Source of the DNA: Bacteroidota bacterium
GTDB lineage: Bacteria; Bacteroidota; Bacteroidia; Bacteroidales; NBLH01
NCBI GenBank assembly: GCA_025361565.1
Contig: JANYKN010000028.1
Location: forward strand, 1 to 64,000
DNA length: 64,000 bases
Reading direction: 5' to 3'
How positions within the stretch are numbered: position 1 is the first letter of the stretch; each line of letters starts with the position of its first letter. This document shows positions 51,789 to 52,602 of this stretch, piece after piece. The position numbers were made by a program, and so were the translations under genes. The notes beneath the pieces were generated by a model. It saw nothing but the letters and a program-made list of their open reading frames with translations. It had not been told where the DNA came from and did not search any database.

Positions 51789-51912
51789 GAAATGACTAAA
51801 GTACTTAGGGTTATTTGCATTTTTTAAATAAGCTAATCAGCTATAAATTAAATCCTGAAATTAATTTTAATAACTGCGTGATATTTGATATTAAAAAGCT
51901 GTTCCAAAAAAT

Positions 51913-52547
51913 AAGCCTGAAAGGCTTGAATACGAATAGCCGCGGGTGTTAACCCGTGGAAAACAAGAATTCAAATCTAAAGCCATCCCTGAAAGGGATG
52001 AAAAGAAACAATTTTATGGCTACATATAAACAAATTGTTTACCAATTGGTTTTTTCAACAAAAAATCGTGAACGAACATTATTAAAAGAAAACAGGGAAA
52101 TTCTTTTCAAATATATCTGGGGAATTATAAAAAACAATAATTGCCATCTCTATCGAATCAATGGTGTAGAAGAACATTTACATGTAGTTACAAGCCTTCA
52201 TCCTAGTGTAGCTTTGGCTGATTTGATTAAAGATATAAAAGTAGCGAGTTCTAAAAAAATTAAAGAAGAAAATCTATTTCCGGGTTTTACAGGTTGGCAA
52301 GATGGTTATTCCGCATTTACTTATCATTACAATATGATTTACGACTTAATTGAATATGTTAAAAATCAGGAAGAACATCACAAAAAAGAATGCTTTATTG
52401 ATGAGTATAAACGATTGATAATTGAATTTGGGATTGAATTCGATGAAAAGTATTTATTCTAAATTAAACCCTTATCAGGGTTTTAAATTTTGCATTAAGA
52501 TCCACGAGTTGCACTCGCGGCTATTCACATTTAAGCCCTTTGGGCTT
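51913..52547 (+). mobile_element. REP-associated transposase element with mirror-ordered hairpins
   Basis: A Y1 transposase gene (52016-52462) is flanked by three hairpins on each side. Left: AAGCC-TGAAA-GGCTT (51913-51927), the CCGCGGGT/ACCCGTGG hairpin (51940-51959) and ATCCC-TGAAA-GGGAT (51985-51999). Right: AAACCCT-TATC-AGGGTTT (52466-52483), the CCACGAGT/ACTCGCGG hairpin (52502-52520) and AAGCCC-TTT-GGGCTT (52533-52547). The outer and middle hairpins correspond to their opposite partners in inverted orientation; the middle pair shares GAATAGCCGCG on opposite strands. This matches REP/BIME-type organisation of RAYT elements. Confidence 0.8.
52016..52462 (+). CDS. REP-associated tyrosine transposase (Y1/IS200-like)
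   Basis: 148 residues from ATG 52016; an in-frame ATG at 51956 lies inside the left hairpin region and is unlikely. The HUH motif is in GVEEHLHVVTSLHPS (His-Leu-His). The nucleophile Tyr is expected in YDLIEYVKNQEEHHKKECF. It cuts and rejoins single-stranded DNA at REP hairpins. All key residues are present, so it may be active. It is inserted in the SpoIIM-DUF4129 gene cluster without breaking a gene. Confidence 0.9.
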   Translation: MATYKQIVYQLVFSTKNRERTLLKENREILFKYIWGIIKNNNCHLYRINGVEEHLHVVTSLHPSVALADLIKDIKVASSKKIKEENLFPGFTGWQDGYSAFTYHYNMIYDLIEYVKNQEEHHKKECFIDEYKRLIIEFGIEFDEKYLF

Positions 52548-52602
52548 ATTAATAAGAGAATAAATAAGTTTAAAATAAAATTGGTGTATAAAGGAGAAAT
52601 TA

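Follow-up and report, generated by a model that had tools for sequence, protein, structure and literature searches.

In a Bacteroidota bacterium (Bacteroidales; NBLH01), a low-copy gene for a Y1 transposase, tnpA, lies between inverted copies of a three-hairpin unit that is probably the cognate repeat of the encoded enzyme, TnpA. The analysed window is a stretch of 64,000 nucleotides (nt) on contig JANYKN010000028.1 (GCA_025361565.1). TnpA is a class 1 enzyme with the Y---Q--HH signature of TnpA_Y1 subclass 1.2, and the system works like a REPtron, a transposase gene associated with repetitive extragenic palindromes (REPs), without being a canonical one. Comparison of sequences and predicted folds shows that the structure of the unit is conserved and that it has spread mostly as gene-free inverted pairs. 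Comparison of related genomes likewise shows that units are mobile, and we infer that TnpA moves them. Numbers with the prefixes L and G are working labels for loci and genomes, and "the order" denotes the order of the host, from which 393 genomes were sampled.

An earlier note on this DNA had described a transposase flanked by three hairpins per side in mirror order, with outer hairpins sharing AAGCC..GGCTT. Both descriptions held when the window was scanned in 170-nt tiles and the flanks were folded as single-stranded DNA (ssDNA), the array occupying positions 51,913–52,548 (Table 1). Only two of 751 tiles contained three hairpins, and both were the flanks of tnpA. Each flank folded into exactly three hairpins (z −6.05 on the left and −5.74 on the right), a stability reached by none of 200 shuffles, and in 2000 shuffled versions of these flanks three hairpins never arose. 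On the right, the gene-proximal stem is lengthened by an A/T stretch.

Table 1. Features of the tnpA locus, in window coordinates
Feature	Position	Strand	Basis
Left triple-hairpin unit	51911..52008	+	covariance model R1, 78.6 bits (training-set member)
Left h1 hairpin AAGCCTGAAAGGCTT	51913..51927	+	hairpin call and ssDNA fold
GAATAG, 5′ foot of left h2, candidate guide	51934..51939	+	
Left h2 hairpin CCGCGGGTGTTAACCCGTGG	51940..51959	+	hairpin call and ssDNA fold
Left h3 hairpin CATCCCTGAAAGGGATG	51984..52000	+	hairpin call and ssDNA fold
tnpA, class 1 Y1 transposase, 148 aa, YVKNQEEHH / WQ / EHLH	52016..52462	+	
Right triple-hairpin unit, inverted	52458..52549	-	R1, 80.1 bits (training-set member)
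Right h3 hairpin	52466..52483	-	hairpin call and ssDNA fold
Right h2 hairpin, minus strand = CCGCGAGTGCAACTCGTGG	52502..52520	-	hairpin call and ssDNA fold
GAATAG, 5′ foot of right h2	52521..52526	-	
Right h1 hairpin TAAGCCCTTTGGGCTTA	52532..52548	-	hairpin call and ssDNA fold

The unit spans about 95 nt. Hairpin h1 is joined to h2 by roughly 11 nt, the last of which are AATAR; some 20 nt separate h2 from h3, and h3 is followed by AA. An alignment of 38 gene-flanking units showed compensatory variation in all three stems: 21 of 22 base pairs had changed on both sides, in 189 alignment cells versus 53 after shuffling. These pair statistics are biased, since the 38 rows were selected for having hairpins, with 14 of 52 detected triples removed by hand. 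The same units were used to build covariance model R1 and thereby find units away from genes. Among 102 dispersed units that took no part in training, aligned by fitting to R1, 95.9% of cells were paired and 20 of 22 pairs showed two-sided change (491 cells versus 140). The AATAR motif was present in the h1–h2 linker of 95 of the 102, compared with one of 102 in the reverse-complement control.

An exact-word search had retrieved precisely two copies of GAATAGCCGCG in the 6.76-Mb genome, both at the tnpA locus and inverted, which by itself would suggest that the hairpins are not a repeat. The structural model overturned that reading. The genome-wide hairpin search proposed earlier thus divides: the exact core is absent elsewhere, while the three-hairpin architecture is abundant. 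The host genome holds at least 36 units (E ≤ 0.01) in 20 clusters, comprising 12 gene-free inverted pairs, three gene loci, and five singles. The gene-free pairs display two topologies, with h3 or h1 inside, six of each. Across the unit-bearing loci, 30 of 42 carry an inverted pair. Of the 14 h3-inside pairs, 13 have a gap of −3 to +5 between partners; of the 16 with h1 inside, 10 have one of 6 to 9. No open reading frame (ORF) of at least 100 aa was overlapped at 13 of 14 own-genome pair or single loci examined. The suggestion that the array is more elaborate than a simple REP pair therefore proved an understatement, the triple block being a conserved, dispersed unit.

Units (E ≤ 1e-6) occur in at least 87 of the 393 genomes of the order. 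The transposase was present in 53 of the 87 unit-positive genomes and in 61 of the 306 unit-negative ones (odds ratio 6.3, p 1e-12). Only part of the candidates were scored (150 of 3927 in the host genome and 10 per genome across the order), so the copy numbers are minimum values and genomes counted as unit-negative may in fact carry units. Beyond the order, the source genomes of L010 (a Cloacimonadota metagenome-assembled genome, MAG) and L008 (an Ignavibacteria MAG) carry 17 and 8 units, respectively. Those of the L010 genome are partly tandem, with an h1–h2 period of about 67 nt and an h3 closing the array. Such an array, at L258:1437-1660 (G394), has h1–h2 recurring every ~67 nt before a single closing h3, which suggests that h1 and h3 represent the same type of module.

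Hairpin triples also accompany other copies of the gene. A survey of 76 gene copies from 75 loci covered 170 nt per side; L029 (on the same contig as L009) and L004/L005 (the same site as the window) were left out, and two flanks were unavailable on each side, leaving 74. Upstream, 28 of 74 flanks held three or more hairpins, and downstream 35 of 74 did; after shuffling, the count was 5 of 5920. The strict ordered triple stood on both sides of 18 of the 76 copies, L010 included, so the mirror order is indeed kept at other copies. The two other homologues in the host genome have mirrored triples of their own sequence on both sides, with further units outside, and homologues of ~35% identity likewise possess ordered arrays with different hairpin sequences (e.g., L177, L187, L188, and L190). 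In 12 loci, uncorrected for relatedness, the two units flanking a gene were more alike in h2 (p 0.002) and h3 (p 0.004) than units from different loci, with no such excess in h1 or the spacer. In a clade of ~42% identity (L055, L058, L062, L068, and L069), two hairpins per side stand ~50 nt apart with no strong middle hairpin, possibly a two-hairpin variant. Downstream of the transposase copy at L026, a 15-nt hairpin, ATCGGTGCAACCGAT, is repeated in tandem over positions 1993–2200, in part of the array every 23 nt; the array looks like an amplified h2 core.

TnpA matches Pfam Y1_Tnp with 70 bits, and its HUH motif (EHLH) and tyrosine (Y114) are intact, as the earlier note had stated; WQ is intact as well. 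Y114, the HUH motif, and the Q and HH of the tyrosine motif are conserved among homologues; 72 of 75, the window copy included (YVKNQEEHH), contain Y---Q--HH. The HUH motif is EHLH in the window and mostly DHLH or DHIH in homologues, compared with DH[IV]H in subclass 1.2. All eight PDB sequence matches are IS200-type. The AlphaFold2 model (predicted local distance difference test, pLDDT, 93.9) superposes on the IS608 and ISDra2 transposases with Z scores of 12.8–13.7; the match to 2xqc has Z 13.7 and a root-mean-square deviation of 2.3 over 108 aligned residues. The REP transposase 4er8 is matched by fold (Z 10.3) and not by sequence. NCBIfam scores run the same way: 54.7 for the IS200 profile, just below its cut-off of 55, versus 26 bits for REP_Tyr_transpos, whose cut-off is 80. 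Given these sequence relatives, fold scores, and profile scores, TnpA is a class 1, IS200-like Y1 enzyme. It lacks the Y---NP motif of the REP-associated tyrosine transposases (RAYTs), and its hairpins have AATAR in place of a 5′ GT[AG]G.

By its sequence motifs (Y---Q--HH and WQ) and low copy number, the protein bears the signature of subclass 1.2 as given by Quentin et al. 2018 (PMC6006769), where a table enters "no" for REP. It also shares with that subclass a short core and occurrence in Bacteroidetes. The reported absence of REPs or terminal structures does not extend to this locus, whose triple-hairpin units stand on both sides of the gene and also recur elsewhere in the genome. The host genome has three tnpA copies, the other two being 64% and 33% identical to that in the window; matches at E ≤ 1e-30 occur in 114 of the 393 genomes, the best at 65% identity. 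Among viral contigs, none of 53 pattern matches was a relative. Apparently decaying transposase genes with internal stop codons were noticed at L064 and at places in G333, G220, G253, G145, and G393.

Comparison of sister genomes shows, at the sequence level, that units are gained in one species or lost in the other. The comparison of G223 with G303 covered seven unit sites. Two of these are clean empty sites, one for a single unit (L223) and one for an inverted pair (L224); their flanks are 91–94% identical. The extra DNA of L224 starts at TGTTGAACCCC and stops near GGTTCAACA, just outside h3. Shared sites are L222 with L227 (by hairpins) and L225. L110 was rejected as an insertion relative to G223, since it appears as a deletion with a remnant; L115 and L226 were rejected as empty sites, other intergenic DNA lying in their place. 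Opposite a G223 unit pair, L218 (G303:C6) holds a different sequence rich in inverted copies of ACAGAG/CTCTGT. At the tnpA site, the relatives G005 and G004 (~40–54% protein identity) are too distant to define exact element ends. In G005 the element is absent and the two neighbour genes lie 36 nt apart, from last aligned residue to first residue, and in G002 other DNA lies between them. Direct repeats around the window element are limited to 6–8-nt matches, none convincing as a target duplication.

The evidence for a cognate pairing of TnpA and unit is comparative, drawn from sequence and structure, and several observations weigh against the pairing. Of the 74 gene flanks examined on each side, 12 upstream and 10 downstream had no hairpin at the threshold used, and of the seven G223/G303 sites two were clean empty sites, three were replaced or deleted, and two were shared. 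The best TnpA homologue in G223 is just 34% identical and its flanks carry no matching triple; no target-site rule could be read from the sites compared. Seven unit-positive genomes lack any transposase match even at E ≤ 1e-8. At this lax level, a match was found in 27 of 34 unit-positive versus 9 of 18 unit-negative genomes (p 0.056, not significant), the 34 being unit-positive, transposase-negative genomes listed by hand and the 18 controls those unit-negative, transposase-negative ones that were given by name. Finally, two dispersed families in the host genome have ends like those of DDE transposons, so dispersal by other enzymes is possible. Among genomes with several units and no match at E ≤ 1e-8 are G119, G168, G173, and G303, which may hold orphan units or be incomplete assemblies.

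The DDE-like ends raise the alternative that the units are passengers in miniature inverted-repeat transposable elements (MITEs), spread through outer inverted repeats by DDE transposases, with TnpA playing no present role. Flanks of unit pairs were complementary (score ≥ 10) in 12 of 29 cases; after re-pairing, the share was 4.6%. Within one own-genome family, the copies counted are not independent. One 17-nt outer inverted repeat, AGAAACTGTTTAAATTT, has six exact copies, all at unit pairs of a single own-genome family, and four own-genome copies with this common repeat are 92–99% identical. On the other hand, outer repeats differ among families and bound only some pairs, many pairs and singles having none; the L224 pair was gained or lost with no outer inverted repeat seen at its ends; and units are enriched in transposase-bearing genomes. 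No transposase-sized ORF was present at the two one-mismatch AGAAACTGTTTAAATTT-like sites inspected (L144 and L145). On balance we regard the passenger account as improbable. Some copies nonetheless sit inside longer, MITE-resembling palindromes, so other transposases may also spread units. Two processes would fit the outer palindromes: a DDE transposase may have spread the units, or the units may have inserted into palindromes, as PMC3733652 describes for certain GTAG and CGTC dimers. Variants of AGAAACTGTTTAAATTT bound pairs wholly or on one side at L079, L080, L089, and L092 in the host genome and at L131 and L136 in others, and ends of this type occur in different families of the order. 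At L117 and L125 (score 18–19), and less clearly at L118, pairs lie between inverted GAGTCCACTCCGA-like ends.

Two further accounts are less probable still. That the hairpins are terminators, mRNA stabilisers, or other RNA or transcription elements merely gathered near tnpA would agree with the intergenic position of units, often close to gene ends. It is hard to reconcile with a fixed three-hairpin order with an AATAR foot mirrored around the gene in many genera, with gene-free inverted pairs and clean gain or loss, and with the lack of any Rfam family at the window locus (E ≤ 0.1). About equally improbable is an ordinary IS200/IS605 insertion sequence (IS) with elaborate ends, moving as a whole. 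The class 1 protein with its IS200-type Y1/HUH fold and near-threshold IS200 profile score, and the G005 operon free of the element, speak for it. The ends of the window element are, in contrast, mutually inverted, where members of this family are described as having no terminal inverted repeats (PMC2817692). In place of near-identical copies, the genes within the genome and across the order are as divergent as given above, and gene-free units greatly outnumber them.

A REPtron-like locus with a cognate three-hairpin unit remains the favoured reading, and its position among known systems can be specified. Like a REPtron of a RAYT (TnpA_REP, class 2), it comprises an HUH/Y1 gene set between palindromic repeats in inverted orientation, with further inverted pairs of these repeats at scattered sites; the difference lies in the class 1 Y---Q motif instead of Y---NP, the missing GT[AG]G guide, and three hairpins per unit rather than one. 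The term REP, used in the earlier note, is accordingly apt for inverted, dispersed palindromic repeats and inapt for the canonical GTAG guide, the RAYT signature, and the enzyme class. IS608 and ISDra2 of IS200/IS605 offer the closest solved folds and a hairpin with a guide-like 5′ foot, but not inverted ends or three hairpins per end, and near-identical copies typical of them were not found here. Bacterial interspersed mosaic elements (BIMEs) and REP doublets forming hairpins (REPINs) likewise consist of gene-free inverted pairs of a palindromic unit in two topologies, as do 12 of the 20 own-genome clusters, though each half here is a 95-nt three-hairpin unit. MITEs resemble those pairs that lie between short outer inverted repeats, which here are variable and often absent.

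As for mechanism, TnpA would bind the hairpins on single-stranded DNA, probably on the lagging strand. Its position at the foot of h2 makes AATAR a natural guide candidate, which would select where to cut, the role of GTAG in REPs; PMC8266576 holds that a tetranucleotide 5′ of the hairpin guides the cut in IS200/IS605 and REPs. The mutually similar h1 and h3 may dock a second subunit or set spacing. Inverted pairs would move as ssDNA by excision, joining, and reinsertion; the form carrying the gene moves rarely. More speculatively, and with clearly less confidence than the cognate pairing commands, these steps might define a separate ssDNA system. In it, a class 1 TnpA would read all three hairpins as one composite site, with AATAR as the guide at h2 and with h1 and h3 serving for docking or spacing; inverted pairs would travel as small ssDNA elements, perhaps inserting preferentially at the centres of existing palindromes.

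The unit is a candidate cognate repeat for a transposase group described as having none. A literature search, with most subscription papers and all preprints outside its reach, found no earlier account of repeats for subclass 1.2. The system offers a natural test of how HUH enzymes choose hairpin and guide (one hairpin versus three, GTAG versus AATAR) and a marker for a repeat class in the order that GTAG-based searches would miss.

The gene has a GPDPase-like membrane gene on one side and a DUF4129-like gene on the other; the domain scores of both are below the cut-offs (GPDPase_memb 22.7 bits versus 29.6; DUF4129 21.1 bits versus 24.8). A neighbouring SpoIIM domain is clear (E 2.3e-37), and DUF4350 is also present. 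The earlier placement of the element inside a SpoIIM-DUF4129 cluster is thus correct, and probably incidental, because both neighbour genes adjoin without the element in G005.
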